Virus record (IMG/VR): IMGVR_UViG_3300010883_028422 | Location: 1 to 64,000 of that record | Source: a virus | Strand: one strand, 5' to 3' | DNA: 64,000 nt | In this document: piece after piece, positions 13,084 to 43,914 of the stretch | Layout of the letters: every line of letters begins with the position of its first letter | Numbering within the stretch: the stretch's first letter is position 1 | Notes under the pieces: generated by a model | What the model was told of the DNA's origin: nothing | Database searches by the model: none | What the model saw: only the letters and a program-made list of their open reading frames with translations | Made by a program: the position numbers and the translations under genes

Positions 13084-13852
13084 ATTAACACTTTTACAGC
13101 CGGGCATGGAGCCTCTTGGTCAATTTGACCTGGCTGATGGCGTCACCCCAGTTGGTGGCGAGTGCGCCACGTTTGGTGCAGCCGCAGGTACATCTACGGC
13201 TGACGATTGGGCAGGTTTAACAACCCTGATCCTTGACGGGCCACTAGATGTAGCCCCTACATTGGGTCTCAACGCGGGTACAGCTTTGCTTGACAGTACC
13301 ACTGCTGCTGTCGCGGGGGCTCTACCGATGCCCGAACTTCATGGACTTGTCGATGAAGGTGCAACTGGTTATGGCACACTGTTTGGTACCGTAATTGGCG
13401 GTACTGCAGGTCAGGGAACTGGTCTGGGCGGCACACCGGGAGTCGGTGTTGTCGTTGTAGGACCAAATACTAATCTTGGTTCTGGCAAGGCAACCCTTTG
13501 GGATAAGCCGGGCCTTTATGGTGCAAGCCAGCCTGCATGGGTTGGTCTTGCTGCTGCTGGAGCTGATGGTGCAGTTTTGAACTCTGCTATTTATGCTGTT
13601 ACCGCTACCTCAGCTACTGCCTTGGCCGTAGTCACGGGAGCTACTGCTGGTGAGCTTTGCTCTAACGTAGATACCGCAGGTTGTGTTGCGGGAATGATAA
13701 CAACTGACAACGAAGCCATACAGGCTGTTGGATTATTTGTTGGAACCCTCGCGGATTCATCCCTGGTATCTACGTCAAATGTTGCGGCCGGTGTTGCTGC
13801 TGTAACTGAAACACATGCAATTTACTTTTTTGGTAATGGAGGTGCAAGATGA
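13079..13852 (+). CDS. Putative capsid decoration/head protein
   Basis: This gene encodes 257 residues, very rich in Gly, Ala, Thr and Val, with only two Lys and few other charged residues, which is typical of beta-rich head-surface proteins. It starts at an ATG with a strong AAGGAG site and overlaps the capsid gene by four bases (ATGA), so the two are probably translationally coupled and made in similar amounts. Codon choice (GGT, GCT, GTT, CGN Arg) resembles the capsid gene rather than most neighbours. Genes just before the capsid gene often code for decoration or scaffold proteins. The lack of coiled coil and the beta-rich composition favour decoration over scaffold. The family was not recognised. 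Confidence 0.55.
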   Translation: MALTLLQPGMEPLGQFDLADGVTPVGGECATFGAAAGTSTADDWAGLTTLILDGPLDVAPTLGLNAGTALLDSTTAAVAGALPMPELHGLVDEGATGYGTLFGTVIGGTAGQGTGLGGTPGVGVVVVGPNTNLGSGKATLWDKPGLYGASQPAWVGLAAAGADGAVLNSAIYAVTATSATALAVVTGATAGELCSNVDTAGCVAGMITTDNEAIQAVGLFVGTLADSSLVSTSNVAAGVAAVTETHAIYFFGNGGAR

Positions 13853-14916
13853 GTAACATATTTAATACAAATGGTGAGCTTAATGCTGGTAACGTAAAGG
13901 ATGCATTAAGTCAGATCGTGAAGTATGCTTCTATTGTTGAAGAGCTTCAGTCTGCCAATGATGTTGCTTCTGCAGCGCCTTCTCTGAATGATTCTCAGAG
14001 AGATGATATGATTAAGCAGGCGCTTATGACACAAGAGGGCAAGATTGCTCTTGGTCAGGCAATGGCGAACCCAATCCGTAGGAACTTGGATTATCAAGGT
14101 GTAGGTCGCAAGGCCCTCGTCGTTGATCCTCTCCCACAGGGTGCGCTTCCAGTGTATGACCGAGATATTGATGTTGCAGCTGTCGTTGTTTCTAGCAACG
14201 GTTCTGCTCCAGAGTCTCGTGTCTTCGGTGACCGTGTGACTGTTCCTGAGTTTGAAGTTGTTTCAAATCCAACTGTCCGTATTGCAGAAGTTAAGCGCCG
14301 TCGTTTCAATGTAATCGATCGTGCTCAGCAGAAGGCAAGGCAGGAGATCCAGGCTCAAGAGGATGCTAACGTATTCGGAGCACTTGGTTTCTGTACTGCT
14401 GCCGCTGGTGGTGAAAACGCGCTTGTCAACCTTGACTATAATGCTGCTCCTGGTGCGATGATTGCTGCTGCTGCTGGTGGTGCAACACCAACTAACACGA
14501 CCATGCTATCAAAGGCTGGCCTGGTTGAGCTGAAGCGCTCTGTTGATCGCTGGGACCTTGTAACTTCTAAGTACTTCATGAATATCAATGAATTCACTGA
14601 TATGCTGAACTGGGAAGCTGCTGGTGGTGCTGGTGCGTCACAGGTTGATCCTGTAACGCAGAGAGAGATTCTTCAGACTGGACTTTATGGACACATTTTT
14701 GGTGCCGACATTGTCGTATCCAAGGTTGTTCCTGCACGTAGCGTTTTCGCTGTTGCAGATCCTGAGTTTGTCGGTGTCATGCCGGTCAGACAGGATATTG
14801 AGGTTCTTCCTGCAGATGAGCCCAAGCAACTTAAGCTTGGTTGGGTTGTTAGCGAAATCATCGGTATTGGTATCGTTAACCCACGTGGTGTCGCTGTTGG
14901 TCAGGTAACTGCCTAA
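13849..14916 (+). CDS. Major capsid protein (HK97 fold)
   Basis: This 355-residue protein builds the icosahedral shell. An N-terminal helical region (about 1-75) is followed by the segment PIRRNLDYQGVGRK and then VDPLPQGALPVYDRD at about 92-106, a pattern I know from capsid proteins of large contractile-tailed phages. The rest is consistent with the HK97 spine helix (KRRRFNVIDRAQQKARQEIQ) and the A-domain. Arg codons are largely CGT/CGC and Lys is mostly AAG, unlike the AGA/AGG-rich neighbours, which fits very high expression. The start ATG lies in an ATGA overlap with a GGAGG site. A terminator follows directly. No cleavage site for a prohead protease could be assigned by eye. Confidence 0.9.
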   Translation: MSNIFNTNGELNAGNVKDALSQIVKYASIVEELQSANDVASAAPSLNDSQRDDMIKQALMTQEGKIALGQAMANPIRRNLDYQGVGRKALVVDPLPQGALPVYDRDIDVAAVVVSSNGSAPESRVFGDRVTVPEFEVVSNPTVRIAEVKRRRFNVIDRAQQKARQEIQAQEDANVFGALGFCTAAAGGENALVNLDYNAAPGAMIAAAAGGATPTNTTMLSKAGLVELKRSVDRWDLVTSKYFMNINEFTDMLNWEAAGGAGASQVDPVTQREILQTGLYGHIFGADIVVSKVVPARSVFAVADPEFVGVMPVRQDIEVLPADEPKQLKLGWVVSEIIGIGIVNPRGVAVGQVTA

Positions 14917-35936: not shown

Positions 35937-38900
35937 ATGCCTAATATACCAGGAATATCAGGATACACACAGCCCGGTGTTTTTGCTAGGGATCGTGTTG
36001 TATCAAGAGGGGTTTCGATCCCTGGGGGGATACGAATTGCATGCATTATGGGCGAGGGCATTCGCGAGGAACTTGTCGTTGCTAATGCGGCAGGATCCGG
36101 TGCGGATGGGAATGCCACAATAAGCCCAACTGGGAGCGGTGATGGAAGGTATTTCAGCCTTGCCTCATCTCCCGTTATTAGCGGAAGAACAGAGCTTTAT
36201 CTAAACGGGTCTATCCTGTATGGGCAAGAGGCCTCTACTAGGGTTAACGGTGTATGGGACTCGGCTGGCTTCTCTGGAGAGTTTGACTATAGGGTTGACA
36301 TTACAAATGGGGCAATTGAGCTTCAAGGCGCATCTATAGGGGATCAAGACGGAGCTATGTTTTCTGCGTCTTCTTTAAACATAGGTGATACAATAATTTT
36401 ATCTGGTACATGCGGCACAAGTGAGCTCATATCGACCGTTGACTCAAACGCTCCAGAGGAGCGCTGGACGGTTAGGTGCGTTAGTGTCGCTAGGGATTCA
36501 AATGGCGACCCAATTGCCGGAAGAGCGACCTTTACAGTCTCCGGATCATCGTCTGGATTAGTAAGAGATAGGGCCGGCTCGCCGTATTTTTGGGATAGCA
36601 ATGCATATATGTCTGCGGCTGGTGCATTATCCGGGTCTGCAACTCCGGACGAAGGTGTTGTTGTTGCTCAAGGAGATACTACGTCAGCAGACGGCAGCCT
36701 TTCTTCTGCAGATTTTTGGCCAGATGGTACGTTAGTAGTAAGAACCATCGGGGATTTATTAACTGATGAGTTTGATGTGCCAGGAAACCTCTTAGCCGCA
36801 GGGCAGGCTATGGTCGGAGATCATTTGGCGGTTACCGGCGAAGATATTGTTACAATAAGTAATATCGCTTATAATGCCATAACAGATGTTACAACTATAA
36901 CTGTTGAAAGTGTAGTTTTAACAGCAACTGGTGCAGCTACCACCTGGGTCATCTATGCCACAAATATGTTGGTTGATGATAGCACAGAGGTTCACAACCA
37001 TATGGACGGAACTATCGATGGTGGAAGCGCGGGTAGCTTTACAAGCTCTGATGTCGGTAAGGTCGTATTAGTGTGTGCTGGTGAGGCCGAAGGTAGATAT
37101 TATATTTCTGCCGTAAATTCATCCAGAAGAGCGAGGCTTGTTTCGTTTGACGACGACTCTGCAGGCCTCCCATCTGCTGCTAGTGGGGGAGGCGGAACTC
37201 CAGTTAGTGGTGGTTTTATTGCTGGCTTTGGCGCAACTCAGTTTTATTTATTACAAACAAATGGGGTGTTGCTATTTGGACTTCAAGCTCAGACCATTCC
37301 ATCGGAAGTTGGAGATAAATTCTATATTGATATAAAGTCAAAAACACTTAGTCTTGGCGATACTCTTGAGACAAGATATATTTATCAGCTAGATTTAGAA
37401 GATCCAGAATATTTTAGTTCGGCTCAGGATTTAATGAATAAACACGGCACTCCGAGTCTTACAAACACATTATCTCTTGGTGCGCAAATGGCGTTTGAAA
37501 ATGGAGCGCCAGCAGTGCTTGCCCTCCAGTGCAGGCCACCGCTTCCAAGAAGAACTTCTTCTCATATATTGGAAGAGGCTGTAGATGGTGTTGGTGGATT
37601 TAGTGGCGGAAGTGAAATTGATGATTTATACTTCCCATTGACGCGCCCAGTCTTAGGGCTTCTTGATGGCAGGCCAGACACAGATACCCAAGTTAACATA
37701 ATGATTATAAGAAATGGCGCAGAGACACAGACCTTTCCAAATAAAATTGGGTTTTATAACTCTCAGTATGAAAACGCAGTTGGTCAGACTACATTTATAA
37801 CAGGGGCAGATACTGCGTATTCGTACACTATTGTAAATACAGAAAGAGACGTTCTCGGGACAGGTGATTCTGGAGCCATATCATCGGCCAGCAGTGAGTT
37901 TTCTTCTGCAGAGTTTGATTTTGACGGTGAAGATATAAACCCGGGATCCGCAATGATCGTTGTGCAGTCGCTGGTTGACATTACAGACACTGTATTAACC
38001 ACTCAGGCGGATATTGCAACCTATCTTTTTGGTGATGCAACTGAAACTGCCGTATTGGTTGTTTCGAGCATATCTGATGACAATACGGTTGTGGTGCAGT
38101 CAGAGAATGGGGGCTTGGCAATTTTAGCTGGACATGAAGCAACGGATGTTCAATTTTATGTTTATGATGATTCAACAACTGGCGGTGGCGCAGCTCTTAT
38201 GTTAAATGCAGATCTTGTTACAAATCAGATTTTGCAGCAAGGTGATGGGATTAGGGTCTCATATATAGATGAGCGAGATGCAAACTTTTTCGATGTTAAT
38301 TGGTTTAGCGCACTCGAAAGACTTGAGGCTGCTGATGCTCAAATGATTATTCCTCTTCCAACTAAAAATAGGTTTGGAATATTTAGAGCGGCAGTCAATC
38401 ACTGCGAAAATATGAGTACAATTGCTATACAAAAAGAAAGAATGGCTCTGTTCGGTGCACAAAGAGGCATTACAGCAGAGGCGCTTGTCGGGATGGAAGA
38501 ACTCGCTGTCGAGGATATTGGAGTTATAGAGGGAATTCAGGGCGACGATCCAGAAGAGGTCCTTGATGGGAACATCGAAGACTTGGTTAATCTGAAGCTT
38601 AGTGATAATTACACTAGTAATCGTGCAGTTTATTTTTTCCCAGATGAGATAGTTAGAAATGTAAATGGAACAAATACCTTTATTGATGGATTTTATATGG
38701 CAGCATGTGCGGCGGGCTGGCTATCTGCCAGGCAGAATGTTGCTATACCGCTAACATATAAGAAGTTGAGTGGGTTTTCCATATTGCGAGATAAGAATTA
38801 TACGAGGACTATGCAAAATTCAATCGGCTCTGTTGGCGGGACATTAGTTACGCCTGTTACTGGTGGGGGCAAGATTCTTCACGCAAGAACAACTAGTAAC

Positions 38901-39206
38901 TCAGGGTTTGTTGAGGATGAAGAGATCTCTATAATGTTCATTAGAGACCGTGTCAAGGAGATTCTGAGACAGTCCCTTCAGGGCTTTCTCGGAACTGTCG
39001 AGAACCCAAACACTCAGGGTCTCATTACTGCTCGTGTTACAAACATAATGGCAGGGTTAGTTAGCCAAGAGCTTATTACAGCTTTTGAAAATATAAGGGT
39101 AGCGCGGGACAAAGTTGACCCAAGGCAGTGGAATGTGTTTTGCAGATTCCAGCCATCATACCCGATAAACTACATCTTCGTTGATATCGAAGTTGGCGTA
39201 ATTTAA
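35937..39206 (+). CDS. Tail sheath protein
   Basis: This 1,089-residue protein forms the contractile sheath around the tube. The start ISGYTQPGVFARDRVV is the characteristic N-terminus of phage sheath proteins. The C-terminal part (from about 940: LSGFSILRDKNYTRTMQ ... NTQGLITARVTNIMAGL ... YPINYIFVDIEVGVI) matches the conserved sheath core that joins neighbours. Known sheaths are mostly 350-700 residues; the extra length lies in a beta-rich Gly/Ser/Asp-rich middle (roughly 50-520), probably surface domains. The tube gene follows by 17 bases. A GGAGG site lies 7 bases before the ATG. Confidence 0.9.
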   Translation: MPNIPGISGYTQPGVFARDRVVSRGVSIPGGIRIACIMGEGIREELVVANAAGSGADGNATISPTGSGDGRYFSLASSPVISGRTELYLNGSILYGQEASTRVNGVWDSAGFSGEFDYRVDITNGAIELQGASIGDQDGAMFSASSLNIGDTIILSGTCGTSELISTVDSNAPEERWTVRCVSVARDSNGDPIAGRATFTVSGSSSGLVRDRAGSPYFWDSNAYMSAAGALSGSATPDEGVVVAQGDTTSADGSLSSADFWPDGTLVVRTIGDLLTDEFDVPGNLLAAGQAMVGDHLAVTGEDIVTISNIAYNAITDVTTITVESVVLTATGAATTWVIYATNMLVDDSTEVHNHMDGTIDGGSAGSFTSSDVGKVVLVCAGEAEGRYYISAVNSSRRARLVSFDDDSAGLPSAASGGGGTPVSGGFIAGFGATQFYLLQTNGVLLFGLQAQTIPSEVGDKFYIDIKSKTLSLGDTLETRYIYQLDLEDPEYFSSAQDLMNKHGTPSLTNTLSLGAQMAFENGAPAVLALQCRPPLPRRTSSHILEEAVDGVGGFSGGSEIDDLYFPLTRPVLGLLDGRPDTDTQVNIMIIRNGAETQTFPNKIGFYNSQYENAVGQTTFITGADTAYSYTIVNTERDVLGTGDSGAISSASSEFSSAEFDFDGEDINPGSAMIVVQSLVDITDTVLTTQADIATYLFGDATETAVLVVSSISDDNTVVVQSENGGLAILAGHEATDVQFYVYDDSTTGGGAALMLNADLVTNQILQQGDGIRVSYIDERDANFFDVNWFSALERLEAADAQMIIPLPTKNRFGIFRAAVNHCENMSTIAIQKERMALFGAQRGITAEALVGMEELAVEDIGVIEGIQGDDPEEVLDGNIEDLVNLKLSDNYTSNRAVYFFPDEIVRNVNGTNTFIDGFYMAACAAGWLSARQNVAIPLTYKKLSGFSILRDKNYTRTMQNSIGSVGGTLVTPVTGGGKILHARTTSNSGFVEDEEISIMFIRDRVKEILRQSLQGFLGTVENPNTQGLITARVTNIMAGLVSQELITAFENIRVARDKVDPRQWNVFCRFQPSYPINYIFVDIEVGVI

Positions 39207-39223: not shown

Positions 39224-39832
39224 ATGGCCGATTATCCAAAAACAGGAAGTGTTTTAGATGAAACAATAAGGACCGCCTTATCAACACAAATTATTATTAT
39301 GGTTAATAATGAGCCTGTTGGGGCGGTACAAAGTTTTCAAGAAACACAAAACAGAACACTTAAGGCAATTACAGAGGTTGGCACTGATGGTATAATTGAA
39401 TTAGTTCCATCAAGTGCAACAAGAACATCATTAACTTTAAGAAGAATTGCTTTTGATGGCCTATCTATAACTGAAGCATTTTCTCGTGGCTTTAGAAATA
39501 TACAGGCCCAAAGAATTCCGTTTGATATCGTAGTTGTAGACCAGTTTACTGGAACAGATAATGATGCTATTATAACAACTTATCATAATTGCTTTTTTGA
39601 AAGAATTGGAAAAACCTATAGTAGCGATGACTATGTTATTGTTGAAGATGCTACAGTTCAGACTGAATATATATCATCACTTCGCGGCGGCGAGGCGGTT
39701 GTGCTTACACAAGGTGTTGGCGGTGGAAGGCAGCTGGCCGGTACTCAGACGGATAATGTCGAGATATTGGCGGATAGCGGGACGCGAAGAGGCTCTTTGG
39801 ACTTCCCGGGGCTTATATCAGCGGCATTCTGA
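39224..39832 (+). CDS. Tail tube protein
   Basis: This gene encodes 202 residues. It follows the sheath as in most contractile phages. The region QSFQETQNRTLKAITEVG then RRIAFDGLSITEAF is the gp19-like tube pattern (a beta-barrel with an exposed loop). It forms the inner channel through which DNA passes. The last 40 residues are Gly-rich (GVGGGRQLAG) and may extend beyond the usual fold. An AGGAG site precedes the ATG. The terminator at 39878 follows. Confidence 0.85.
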   Translation: MADYPKTGSVLDETIRTALSTQIIIMVNNEPVGAVQSFQETQNRTLKAITEVGTDGIIELVPSSATRTSLTLRRIAFDGLSITEAFSRGFRNIQAQRIPFDIVVVDQFTGTDNDAIITTYHNCFFERIGKTYSSDDYVIVEDATVQTEYISSLRGGEAVVLTQGVGGGRQLAGTQTDNVEILADSGTRRGSLDFPGLISAAF

Positions 39833-39937: not shown

Positions 39938-40390
39938 ATGACTAGAAAGAAGGCTACTATAAAGTCTGACGGTGATGAGTTAGAACTTGAAAAAGAAACT
40001 GAATTGCCATTGATATCGGCACCAAACCTAAGGGACTTGATTTTTCTTGGCTCTATCGAAAAGGTTGTTGATATTGGTGGCTTTAGGTTTAAAATAAGAA
40101 CTTTAAGCGGTAGGCAGCAGAAGGCTGCGCTTGCAAAGACTATGCGGCACGATGAGGAGGAAAGACTTTCTGTCCTTAGAACCTCAATACTTGCATCAGC
40201 AATAGTTGATGTAAATGGTGTTCCGCTAGAGAATGCTTATGACGGAGATGATTTAGATACAGATTTGGACAGAAAGATGTTCGTTGTTGAAGGGCTACAA
40301 ACATCTGTTGTTGATAAATTATACTTAGCATATGATGATCTTACAAAGCAATCAAGCGCGGATGTGGAGGAAAATACGCTAAAAAAATAA
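39938..40390 (+). CDS. Tail assembly chaperone, first ORF (gpG-like)
   Basis: This gene encodes 150 residues. It lies directly between the tube and tape measure genes, where phages encode tail assembly chaperones that coat the tape measure until the tube forms. The sequence (RDLIFLGSIEKVVDIGGFRFKIRTL then a helical half) suits a small alpha/beta chaperone. It ends with ...NTLKK at a run of seven A residues immediately before TAA, exactly the layout needed for a -1 frameshift into the next ORF. A GGAG site precedes the ATG. Confidence 0.75.
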   Translation: MTRKKATIKSDGDELELEKETELPLISAPNLRDLIFLGSIEKVVDIGGFRFKIRTLSGRQQKAALAKTMRHDEEERLSVLRTSILASAIVDVNGVPLENAYDGDDLDTDLDRKMFVVEGLQTSVVDKLYLAYDDLTKQSSADVEENTLKK

Positions 40391-40411
40391 CATCTGACAT
40401 AGAGTCTATGT
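40381..40411 (+). promoter_or_regulatory. Programmed -1 ribosomal frameshift signal
   Basis: The heptamer A AAA AAA (40381-40387) is in the right phase (CTA AAA AAA TAA). A hairpin (ACATAG 40397-40402, loop AGT, CTATGT 40406-40411; extendable by one G-U pair) begins 8-9 bases later, the usual spacing for stimulatory structures. Confidence 0.75.
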
Positions 40412-40830
40412 TGCGTTGGGAGCTTTGTAAGGTTTGGAAGTGCAAGGTCGATGACGCAATATTTTCTGGCATTAATCAATATCAGTGGTCCTGGTATGCA
40501 AGAATGATACTTTTAGATAGGCAGAGCGAATCTGAAAGAGATATTAGCTATATAGAATATTTAGCATCATTCTCTAATTATGAAGCCGTTAAAGCAGTCC
40601 AAGACGCAAGGTCTCAGGATGAAGAGCACACCTTTGCCTCGGACCAAGAGTTCGATGAGCGGGTTAGGACTGGAGAGTTTAAGGATAACGAATATCTTGA
40701 TGCGGTCAGGATCTCTAAGGAAAATACTAATTTTAATACTAATAGTGACCAGAAAACTTCTTCATCAGACAGATTTAGGGCGCCAAGAAGTCTGGCTTCA
40801 TTAAGAAAGGTTATAGAGGACAATGAGTAA
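40408..40830 (+). CDS. Tail assembly chaperone, second ORF (T-like)
   Basis: This gene encodes 140 residues from an ATG at 40408 that has no convincing Shine-Dalgarno site, and its frame is open back through the slippery site. It is therefore best read as the T-like extension of the first chaperone, reached by -1 frameshifting, and perhaps never started on its own. It is helical with many charged residues; a C-terminal Ser-rich basic segment (SSSDRFRAPRSLASLRK) may bind the tape measure protein. The stop TAA shares a base with the tape measure ATG (TAATG). Confidence 0.7.
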   Translation: MLRWELCKVWKCKVDDAIFSGINQYQWSWYARMILLDRQSESERDISYIEYLASFSNYEAVKAVQDARSQDEEHTFASDQEFDERVRTGEFKDNEYLDAVRISKENTNFNTNSDQKTSSSDRFRAPRSLASLRKVIEDNE

Positions 40831-42971
40831 TGGCAGCAAATAAAATTAAACAACTTATGACCCTCCTAGACTCTGATGCTGCGGGGTCCCTAGAGAAGGT
40901 TGCGGGATCCTTCGATAAGCTCACCAGAGGTCTTACGGGGTTTTCTGACGCCGCAAATGCAGGTAGTGATAATTATCAAGCATTACTAAATGGTTTAACT
41001 AAAATTGGAGCAGCGTTTGGTGAACTAGATGAGGTCACCAAAACGTTATTTGGAGGGACATCCAAACTTGCTGGTGCATTTGGGGGGCTGCTAAAGCCAC
41101 TTAAGCTTATAAGTCAGTCAGTCGGCGCTTTTGCGCAAATCCAAAGAATATTTGGCGAGATGACCGGAGCTTTAGATTCTTTATCTGCTGGAGTTAGGGA
41201 GAATTATTCTGAATTCCATGTTTTAACAAATTCATTTGGAGGGACATACAACGAGGCCAAGAGGCTTTCTGTTTTATTTACTGAAATTCAACAAAAATCT
41301 GGCTCAAAAGAATTTGGGTTTGTAAACAGGAAGGAGCTTTTGGACACCGCAAAAGCAATGGAGTCTAGCAATCTTCAGATTTCAAGAATGTCAGAAATAA
41401 TACCTTCTGCTGGGCGAAATATGGATTTGCTTACGACATCCGTATTGCAAGCAGACGCAATGAGTATGAGTATAACTGAGCATATGGGTCTTCTATCTAG
41501 TGCTATAATGAAGACAGGCTTAAGCTCAGATGAAGCGTTTAAGCAGCTTGCTGGATTTAAAGACGTTGCGGATAAGACTGGCCTTAGCACATCAACGATA
41601 GCTACAGCTCTTCAGTCTGCTGTATCTAATTTTCAACAACTTGGTTTATCAGCAGATTTTGCAAAGCCATTAATATTGGGATTTGCAGAAAGTCTTGGCG
41701 AGGTTGGGGTCGGTATAGAAAATGCCGTTGGATTGTCACAGGCGTTAGCAAAATCGCTAGGCTCTCTTGGCGAGGATTATGGCATGTCATATCTTGTTTC
41801 GCAATTAGGAGGCCTTGACTACGGGCAGGGTGGTAACGCATTATCTTCCGGAATAGGGATGCAAAAGGCAATGCTTGATGCAGAAACAACTGGTGATTTT
41901 GAATCGCTTGGCGCGGAGCTTGCCGGTGGAATGAAAACCATGCTTGAGGGCTTTGGCGGTGGTGAAATAGTTACCGTTACAGATGCAGCAAACGACCCAA
42001 CAAAAGCTTCTGCTTTTTATACGCAACAACAGCTCTTGTCGAGTCAATTCTCAATGAGTCAGTCTGAAGCAACAAGAACTTTGGAAATGCTTAAGGGTCT
42101 TGATTCTGCCGTAGCCTCTGGGGACACAGAGACTGCCAAGAAGCTAAGGGAGCAGATCGCGGATCAGAAGTCTGGTAGGAATGATACGATTTCTTTGATG
42201 GAAAAGCAGAATATTCATACGGCAGGGATATTTGCTCAAGCCCAAATGCAGACAAGAATGCAGGCGATGATGCTTAGGGATGAGGCCGGGGGCGAGATGC
42301 TCGCACAGATGAATGCAGAAGCTACCGAAATGGCTAATGAATATTTAAAGGCAACCGAGGGGGGATTGAAGCCAGAATATATAAAGAATGCTGCTGATGC
42401 TCTAAATCAGGCATTCCAGAAGAGTGATGCCTTCGCAGGCAAGGGCAAGGGTGCGGATGCAAGAGGTACATTTACTGAGACTGGAATTGAGTTAGTTGGA
42501 AGTGCTGTCGAGGAGGCTGTGCAATATAAGCCCGAAGATGTGAGAAAGGAATTCGAGGGCTTTTTTGATGATCTTAAGAAAGCAATTTGGGGCTCCGCTA
42601 CTTTAGTGGCAGGCTCTAATGTTGGCGCGGTGGTCTCCGGCAGCGGTGTGCCGATTGTTTTAGGCCCAGTTCCGGCGCCCGGCAGCGCCGGAGGAAGTGA
42701 TATACGTTTGAAAGAAGATATAACACATATTGGAGTTTCGGAGTCTGGGTTGAATATTTATACATTTAGATATATTGGAGGCGGCATACTTTATCAAGGA
42801 GTTATGGCTCAAGAGCTGCTTGTGTCAAACCCAGAGGCAGTTCTTGTTGGTGATAATGGATATTACATGGTTGACTATAGCCTTATTGATGTTGATTTCT
42901 TCCCGGTTGAAATAAATAATATTTTACTAGAAAACAATAGTACATTAGGATATACAAATGCAAGGATATAG
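40830..42971 (+). CDS. Tape measure protein with C-terminal Peptidase_S74 domain
   Basis: This gene encodes 713 residues. It follows the chaperone pair, is Ala/Gly/Leu-rich and largely helical with hydrophobic stretches (about 75-110 and 390-420), as tape measure proteins are; these fix tail length and leave with the DNA. From residue 623 the sequence SDIRLKEDITHIG ... GVMAQELL matches the Peptidase_S74 intramolecular chaperone, with Ser623 and Lys628 placed like the catalytic Ser-Lys pair, and GYYMVDYSLI at its end. S74 domains normally end fibres and spikes, trimerise them and then cut themselves off. Here self-cleavage would leave a 622-residue tape. At about 0.15 nm per residue this predicts a tail near 93 nm (about 107 nm uncut). 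It overlaps the next gene by 14 bases. Confidence 0.8.
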   Translation: MAANKIKQLMTLLDSDAAGSLEKVAGSFDKLTRGLTGFSDAANAGSDNYQALLNGLTKIGAAFGELDEVTKTLFGGTSKLAGAFGGLLKPLKLISQSVGAFAQIQRIFGEMTGALDSLSAGVRENYSEFHVLTNSFGGTYNEAKRLSVLFTEIQQKSGSKEFGFVNRKELLDTAKAMESSNLQISRMSEIIPSAGRNMDLLTTSVLQADAMSMSITEHMGLLSSAIMKTGLSSDEAFKQLAGFKDVADKTGLSTSTIATALQSAVSNFQQLGLSADFAKPLILGFAESLGEVGVGIENAVGLSQALAKSLGSLGEDYGMSYLVSQLGGLDYGQGGNALSSGIGMQKAMLDAETTGDFESLGAELAGGMKTMLEGFGGGEIVTVTDAANDPTKASAFYTQQQLLSSQFSMSQSEATRTLEMLKGLDSAVASGDTETAKKLREQIADQKSGRNDTISLMEKQNIHTAGIFAQAQMQTRMQAMMLRDEAGGEMLAQMNAEATEMANEYLKATEGGLKPEYIKNAADALNQAFQKSDAFAGKGKGADARGTFTETGIELVGSAVEEAVQYKPEDVRKEFEGFFDDLKKAIWGSATLVAGSNVGAVVSGSGVPIVLGPVPAPGSAGGSDIRLKEDITHIGVSESGLNIYTFRYIGGGILYQGVMAQELLVSNPEAVLVGDNGYYMVDYSLIDVDFFPVEINNILLENNSTLGYTNARI

Positions 42972-43914
42972 AAAGACATTAAAGTTTTTAGTTCCAAGGA
43001 ACAAAAATGCTATTGGAAATTTCTCACTAGAAAATAGAGATATTGTTCCTATTTATATAAATCCACAGTCTATTAACATACGTGAAAGAAAGATTATAAA
43101 TAAACAACTAACCAAGGGCGGATATGTGATCCAGTATTGGGGAGAGGAGCTTCCGGTTATGTCTGTAAATGGAACAACTGGCTCCTCGGGTGTTGAGGGT
43201 ATCAACTTATTAAGAGATGTATATAGAAATGAGCAAATTGCAGTTAGAAGACAGCTTTTGGAAAAAATGGAAAATCAAACAGAGTCGATGATTGGCAATT
43301 TAACAGGACTTGCAGAGATTGGATCTAAAGCAACAAGTTTTTGGGGCGGCTTAAGCAGCGCATTTGATAATGGTGGCTTTACAGATTTGATTGGCTCACA
43401 ATGGCTTGCTGGGTCAAAAAGCGTTGTTGATTCCTGGGTTAGTGCGTTTCAAGGCACTGCTGATGATGCTGTCCAAAGAACTGTTTTGAACCCATCTCTT
43501 GGCGCATTTGCAGTAAGTATGGATGTTTATTTTCAAGCCGAAAGGTTTCGTGGATATTTTTCAAATTTTAGCTCAAGTGAAAGAGCGGGCACGCCTGGAT
43601 TATTTGAATATAATTTTGAATTTATAATAACAAAAAGAATGGGCAAGAGAAATAACTTTATGCCATGGCATAGAAGCCCCGTTGACGCAACCGGAGACCC
43701 AATACCAGCGTCAATACCTGCCGGAAAGCAGGTTGGAGGCATCGACCATGGCTTATCATATCCTCCAACATATGATTCTACTGCTATTGTCAGGTTCGAT
43801 CCAAATCCTGATAGCTTAGTGACCGAAGGTGCTTTTGCTGGAGAGTCGATACCTGATGCTGCTGAGGTTGAGGTTGCTATTGATAGACGCAGTAGTATAA
43901 CAGAAGGAGATTAA
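42958..43914 (+). CDS. Baseplate/tail-tip protein upstream of the hub
   Basis: This gene encodes 318 residues. The stretch IYINPQSINIRERKIINKQ ... GGYVIQYWGEELPVMSVNG (about 30-75) resembles a conserved pattern (NP.SI.....I.K....GG.VI.HWG..L..I...G.TG) that I recall from tail-tip proteins of large phages. It probably lies between tube and hub at the tail end. The C-terminal part is acidic and loop-rich. It overlaps the tape measure gene by 14 bases and is two bases from the hub gene. Confidence 0.6.
   Translation: MQGYRKTLKFLVPRNKNAIGNFSLENRDIVPIYINPQSINIRERKIINKQLTKGGYVIQYWGEELPVMSVNGTTGSSGVEGINLLRDVYRNEQIAVRRQLLEKMENQTESMIGNLTGLAEIGSKATSFWGGLSSAFDNGGFTDLIGSQWLAGSKSVVDSWVSAFQGTADDAVQRTVLNPSLGAFAVSMDVYFQAERFRGYFSNFSSSERAGTPGLFEYNFEFIITKRMGKRNNFMPWHRSPVDATGDPIPASIPAGKQVGGIDHGLSYPPTYDSTAIVRFDPNPDSLVTEGAFAGESIPDAAEVEVAIDRRSSITEGD

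Follow-up and report, generated by a model that had tools for sequence, protein, structure and literature searches.

Tape measure gene and its neighborhood

The window, a stretch of 64,000 nucleotides (positions 1 to 64,000) of the 135,425-base IMG/VR record IMGVR_UViG_3300010883_028422, comes from an uncultured contractile-tail phage. Its tail genes are arranged in the order sheath, tube, two small ORFs, a 713-aa ORF, a 318-aa ORF, a 1758-aa ORF at the hub position and an 803-aa spike-like ORF; the features from the sheath gene through the 318-aa ORF lie on the + strand. The sheath gene (35937..39206) is identified by a match to PHROG_2839 (7.8e-14), and the tube gene (39224..39832), directly 3′ of it, by a match to PHROG_985 (9e-11). 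A tail assembly chaperone (39938..40390) is assigned from its position and a weak match to PHROG_2992 (0.0045), and the second small ORF (40408..40830), whose position is kept in relatives, is probably an assembly chaperone as well. Downstream of the 713-aa ORF (40830..42971) follows directly the 318-aa virion gene (42958..43914), with a 14-nt overlap. The sheath protein is unusually long, at 1089 aa, and known sheath families match only its last ~180 residues, so that large inserted surface domains are probable. The major head protein of the window (13849-14916) shares 49% identity with that of Bacillus phage G, a phage of 497 kb, while the present record has 135 kb.

Using the tube protein as query, we found 21 related loci, 14 of which have a complete gene at the tape measure position, encoding a protein of 581-698 aa. 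Together with the window protein these give 15 sequences that align along the body. PF20155 (TMP_3) weakly matches five of the 15 homologs (best 6.9e-4), the window protein not being among them, and PHROG_10613 matches one homolog (0.014). The first-pass annotation had called the 713-aa ORF a tape measure protein (TMP). The order of tube, two chaperone-position ORFs, TMP and hub in the relatives agrees with that call, and the assignment is well supported by synteny with the 14 relatives having complete TMP genes and moderately by profile. As a helix, 713 residues would span approximately 107 nm. In four loci (L008, L009, L014, and L023), an ORF of ~203-205 aa with paired cysteines lies between the tube and chaperone genes; it appears HNH-like by eye, may be a homing endonuclease, and is absent in the window.

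From the alignment, the TMP body common to homologs that lack an S74 domain comprises residues 1-590 (40830..42599). It is followed by a Pro/Gly/Ala-rich linker, residues 591-622 (42600..42695), and the most similar TMP in sequence, that of locus L005, stops inside the equivalent linker (APSTGSNAPPVVTP). The remainder of the window protein consists of a short S74 or intramolecular-chaperone auto-processing (ICA) domain, residues 623-690 (42696..42899), and a C-terminal tail, residues 691-713 (42900..42968), which is poorly conserved.

A short Peptidase_S74 domain at the C-terminus

As first annotated, residue 623 (nt 42696) begins SDIRLKEDITHIG, followed by FRYIGGG, GVMAQELL and GYYMVDYSL. Ser623 and Lys628 are five residues apart, which is the SDxxxK spacing of S74, and the dyad stands at the start of the domain. 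In a search with the whole protein, Pfam Peptidase_S74 (PF13884) matches residues 623-672 over the full profile (1-58 of 58) with 19.5 bits (E 0.0012), just below the curated cut-off of 22 bits; in the genome search the match reaches 24 bits, above the cut-off, and is the only S74 domain that Pfam finds in the whole record. PHROG_6121 matches the TMP C-terminus with 8.8e-16. A profile built from 60 relatives and compared with the PDB retrieves the MYRF ICA domain (7dc3), a long-tail-fiber chaperone (6f45) and the GA-1 neck-appendage chaperone (3gud), with E-values of 4e-4 to 2e-3. The AlphaFold2 monomer model, made with 54 relatives, is compact, with a pLDDT of about 88 over the S74 core, and many of its fold neighbors in BFVD are named as ICA domain proteins. 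A Foldseek search of the PDB with the same monomer model gave no meaningful match, a search that is uninformative because the known S74 structures are intertwined trimers, and a single-sequence search of the PDB with the domain gave nothing useful. TMP residues 623-713 thus carry a Peptidase_S74/ICA autoprocessing domain well beyond chance. A sequencing or frame artifact was considered and rejected, given that the ORF is open, that the relative L004 has the same architecture, and that the segment is under purifying selection.

The domain is homologous in sequence to the classical S74/ICA domains (CIMCD) of K1F endosialidase, T5 pb1, the GA-1 neck appendage and MYRF, and shares with them SDxxxK, the Asp and Gly needed for cleavage and, in the case of the phage proteins, the C-terminal position. 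An aromatic pair near the active site, F646 and Y648 in the window, aligns with MYRF Y615 and Y617. Unlike the classical domains, which have about 130 residues, the domain described here has about 65-70, and it is not preceded by a triple beta-helix as in fibers; its partner is a helical tape measure protein. The best 80 viral relatives of the domain are likewise all found at the extreme C-terminus, with about 65-90 residues only, and the last conserved strand of the short family, V[ND]Y, is followed by a median of 11 residues. In the domain model there is no helix after residue 690, and the 23-residue tail is of low confidence. In MYRF and T5 pb1, the C-terminal helix (alpha4) forms a trimeric coiled coil. 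Since that coiled coil is missing, we regard the domain as a short S74 variant rather than a classical CIMCD. For the same reason there is no support for the earlier proposal that this domain could by itself determine the trimer state of the TMP.

Invariant residues of the short form

Among 100 unique relatives (43 effective sequences at 62% identity), the only fully invariant positions are Ser623 (42696..42698), Asp624 (42699..42701), Lys628 (42711..42713), and Gly657 (42798..42800). Most of these sequences were found by a motif near the C-terminus and not by the dyad, so that the search did not itself select for an invariant dyad, although its confirmation step favors closer relatives. Conservation begins abruptly at Ser623; position 622, just before the predicted cut, is free, with an entropy of 3.4 bits across the 100 sequences.

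The four positions correspond to residues of known function. Ser623 is the catalytic nucleophile by homology, and Lys628 the second member of the Ser-Lys dyad: in MYRF, cleavage between P586 and S587 is lost with either substitution, S587A or K592A (mouse numbering; PMC8326128). Asp624 is equivalent to MYRF D579 and K1F endosialidase N912, and Gly657, the Gly of the G-x-x-A-Q motif, to MYRF G626 and K1F G956; in the profile alignment the G of MYRF TGVIAQEV falls on G657. D579A and G626A (human numbering), modeled on the K1F residues N912 and G956 that are reported to be essential, markedly reduce MYRF cleavage, and in the known trimer this Gly is supplied by the neighboring subunit (PMC3742443). 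The invariant set is consequently the set required for cleavage. The catalytic pair proposed in the first-pass annotation therefore holds, and its helper residues D624 and G657 are under the same strong selection.

Exchange of the domain between related phages

The S74 segment is a horizontally exchanged cassette that moves between related phages. Between the window and L004 it is identical in 94% of residues and 92% of bases, whereas the TMP bodies share 65% DNA identity. Its dS of 0.28 compares with values of 2.4 in the TMP body, 1.2 in the tube gene and 1.4 in the gene downstream. The break in DNA identity is sharp and falls at the Ser623 codon, which is the exact 5′ edge of the cassette: 21 of 60 bases agree upstream, and the first 30 of 30 agree downstream. 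Near its 3′ edge lies the downstream 318-aa gene. The G+C content is about 0.34 in the cassette versus 0.46 in the TMP body. Common descent of the S74 segment with the TMP body was rejected, as the body of the window protein is nearer to that of the S74-less L005 (70% residue identity) than to that of L004 (63%) and there is a roughly nine-fold difference in dS. The history of the cassette may have involved gains in two lineages, a transfer, or a loss in L005.

The S74 domain is absent from 13 of the 15 homologous TMPs, L005 included, and its role therefore cannot be essential to this tail type. One reading of this distribution is that the end of a fiber or ejection gene was pasted onto the TMP gene by recombination and is tolerated there without a function. 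The mobility of the cassette, its foreign G+C and its absence from most homologs agree with such an origin. We nevertheless consider this reading very improbable, because the core of the domain is under purifying selection (omega 0.105) while the tail, residues 691-713, drifts (omega 0.79), because the dyad is intact, and because a domain of the same kind was gained independently at the same place in a second TMP family.

This second family is represented by locus L049 (IMGVR_UViG_3300030098_004539, a 128-kb contig), in which matches to sheath, tube and chaperone are followed by a 723-aa protein with an S74 tail. Its tube relatives (L142-L145) have S74-less TMPs of 595-627 aa that end near the same place. 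The L049 locus resembles the window in its contractile-tail gene order and in the short S74 domain placed just past the native C-terminus, but its TMP sequence is unrelated. Homology between the two S74-bearing TMP families was rejected, profile comparison finding no similarity between them (6% probability). By these sequence comparisons, the S74 domain was added separately, and at the same place, to a second TMP family that is unrelated to the first. In a further locus (L105:2-1072), a 5′-truncated Gly/Ala-rich protein with a C-terminal short S74 domain could be a third tape measure; it has no family match.

Other proteins carrying the short form

The short form is also found on proteins of genome delivery. 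PHROG_4287, annotated as "DNA ejection protein," has a short S74 domain at its own C-terminal end, and the N-terminal parts of other carriers match the DNA-ejection families PHROG_4287 and PHROG_598 and the internal virion protein family PHROG_15746. In Rhizobium phage RHph_Y1_10, the S74 gene (EVB56_081) adjoins, and lies just before, the genes annotated as injection proteins; PAE2 and Mae-JY35 have their S74 gene in the matching position. Sulfitobacter phage pCB2047-A/C is a further cultured phage having the short form on an ejection protein. These domains (PHROG_4287, PHROG_6121; Pseudomonas phage PAE2_13, RHph_Y1_10 EVB56_081) are the same as that of the TMP in domain type, in their extreme C-terminal location and in their invariant residues, and here too the partner takes part in genome delivery; the partners differ in being proteins of the P22 gp7 or T7 gp14 position, unrelated to the TMP. 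The first-pass annotation had presented S74 on a tape measure as a new use. Its presence on the TMP stands, but it is not an isolated case, as many DNA-ejection proteins, and a TMP of a second family, end in the same short domain.

Several carriers depart from this pattern. In L072:3615-6222, a gp5-like baseplate hub/lysozyme occupies two separate ORFs of 409 and 455 aa; a short S74 domain ends the latter, and a gp25-like gene lies alongside. In loci L154-L162, for the most part contigs of Rhodobacterales, the short S74 domain is very conserved and forms the end of small proteins; some of these have an apparent signal peptide (L157, L158), and they are not obviously phage or fiber proteins. 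The 1186-aa "internal virion protein D" of L035:5170-8727 (MW202675.1) has its S74 domain in mid-protein, at about residues 277-339, with a long stretch C-terminal to it; if it cleaves itself there, a fused ejection protein would be divided into two parts. In L128:635-1603 and L131:5824-6675, an S74-like domain stands close to the N-terminus, instead of at its usual place at the C-terminus, and a long extension follows it.

S74 domains as such are well known, and the short form on ejection proteins is already in databases; we found no discussion of it. A survey of the open-licence literature found no description of an S74 or endosialidase chaperone on tape measure or ejection proteins, nor, in the portions of those papers available, of an intramolecular chaperone together with a tape measure; being confined to open-licence papers, this absence of reports is weak evidence.

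Proposed function of the cassette

We lean towards self-cleavage as the main function of the cassette, which would make it the cis counterpart of the processing of lambda gpH and T5 pb2. Cleavage is proposed because the four invariant residues are those whose mutation blocks or strongly reduces the self-cleavage of MYRF. During tail assembly, the Ser623-Lys628 dyad would cut the peptide bond before Ser623 in cis (Gly622|Ser623), freeing a C-terminal fragment of ~91 residues and leaving a mature TMP of 622 residues that would end in a flexible linker, like the natural C-terminus of the S74-less relatives. The TMP of L005 stops in the linker, and its natural end thus resembles the expected cleavage product. 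We infer that cleavage would occur once three TMP chains have met at the hub of the tail tip. The S74 domain would not itself make the trimer; this would be the task of the helices of the TMP together with the threefold hub, and the trimer would complete a shared active site using Gly657 of the neighboring chain.

In lambda and T5, gpH and pb2 undergo processing in the course of tail morphogenesis, and a C-terminal piece of each is found as a trimer at the tail tip (PMC10721106, PMC10038345). As proposed for the window, a tape measure is cut in tail morphogenesis and its trimeric C-terminus lies at the tip; by contrast, no S74 domain is reported for these proteins, the available portions of the two accounts name no responsible protease, and in T5 the cleaved fragment of pb2 stays in the tip.

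Some points speak against self-clipping or could account for the data otherwise. The short form has no coiled coil to drive trimerization, while MYRF depends on the trimer for its cleavage. The folded fiber upstream, from which the oxyanion Arg comes in K1F and T5, is absent in the window TMP; MYRF, however, cuts without that Arg. Most of the homologous TMPs lack the domain, and Ser and Lys might have been conserved for reasons of folding or binding instead. A tentative alternative, which overlaps with self-clipping rather than excluding it, is that the short S74 domain serves more generally in the handling of proteins that exit the virion together with the DNA. It would help aggregation-prone ejection proteins and TMPs to stay in solution or properly sorted up to the point of packaging or assembly, and its cleavage would release them; the TMP would be one of many clients. 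The short form at the ends of DNA-ejection and internal virion proteins of many podophages (PHROG_4287, PHROG_598, PHROG_15746) and next to the injection proteins of RHph_Y1_10, or in the matching position in PAE2 and Mae-JY35, fits such a role. The domain is also carried, however, by the gp5-like spike half of L072 and by the small, apparently secreted Rhodobacterales proteins, and so the clients are not all ejected.

The chief rival to self-clipping is an uncut docking cap, in which the short S74 domain would stay on the TMP C-terminus and dock to the baseplate hub or help to recruit the TMP at tail initiation. A compact and confidently modeled domain without a trimerizing helix, located at the TMP end that, going by lambda and T5, is expected to touch the hub and exchanged as far as the border with the downstream virion gene, would suit this purpose. 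A cap that stays on leaves unexplained why the Ser, Asp, Lys, and Gly of autoproteolysis are the sole invariants and why conservation starts abruptly at the Ser, and we judge it rather unlikely. Least probable of all is the classical fiber-type use, in which a coiled coil of the domain's own would trimerize the TMP before cleaving off as in endosialidase: the family and the dyad are the same, but neither sequence nor model contains the C-terminal coiled-coil helix, which already contradicts it, and a Pro/Gly-rich linker lies upstream instead of a beta-helical stalk.

Returning to self-clipping, a broader form of the proposal, which we put forward only as a possibility, is that of a TMP with a mobile built-in protease. 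The cassette would sense the assembly of three chains at the hub, clip itself off and thereby set tail maturation in cis, acting as a plug-in that phages gain and lose and that is also used on ejection proteins. The release of the S74 domain as a putative signal for the end of assembly, suggested in the first-pass annotation, is possible.

Processing of the TMP in lambda and T5 has been known for decades, and its purpose is unclear. The cassette on the window TMP suggests a built-in way of trimming the tail-length protein. S74 autoprocessing would no longer be a matter of fibers only, the short form being found mainly on proteins of the genome-delivery path, without a trimer-stabilizing fiber fold. 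In these phages a presumed protease is joined to the TMP, occurs in some close relatives and not in others, and could be killed by one substitution; this natural system makes the purpose of TMP trimming testable.
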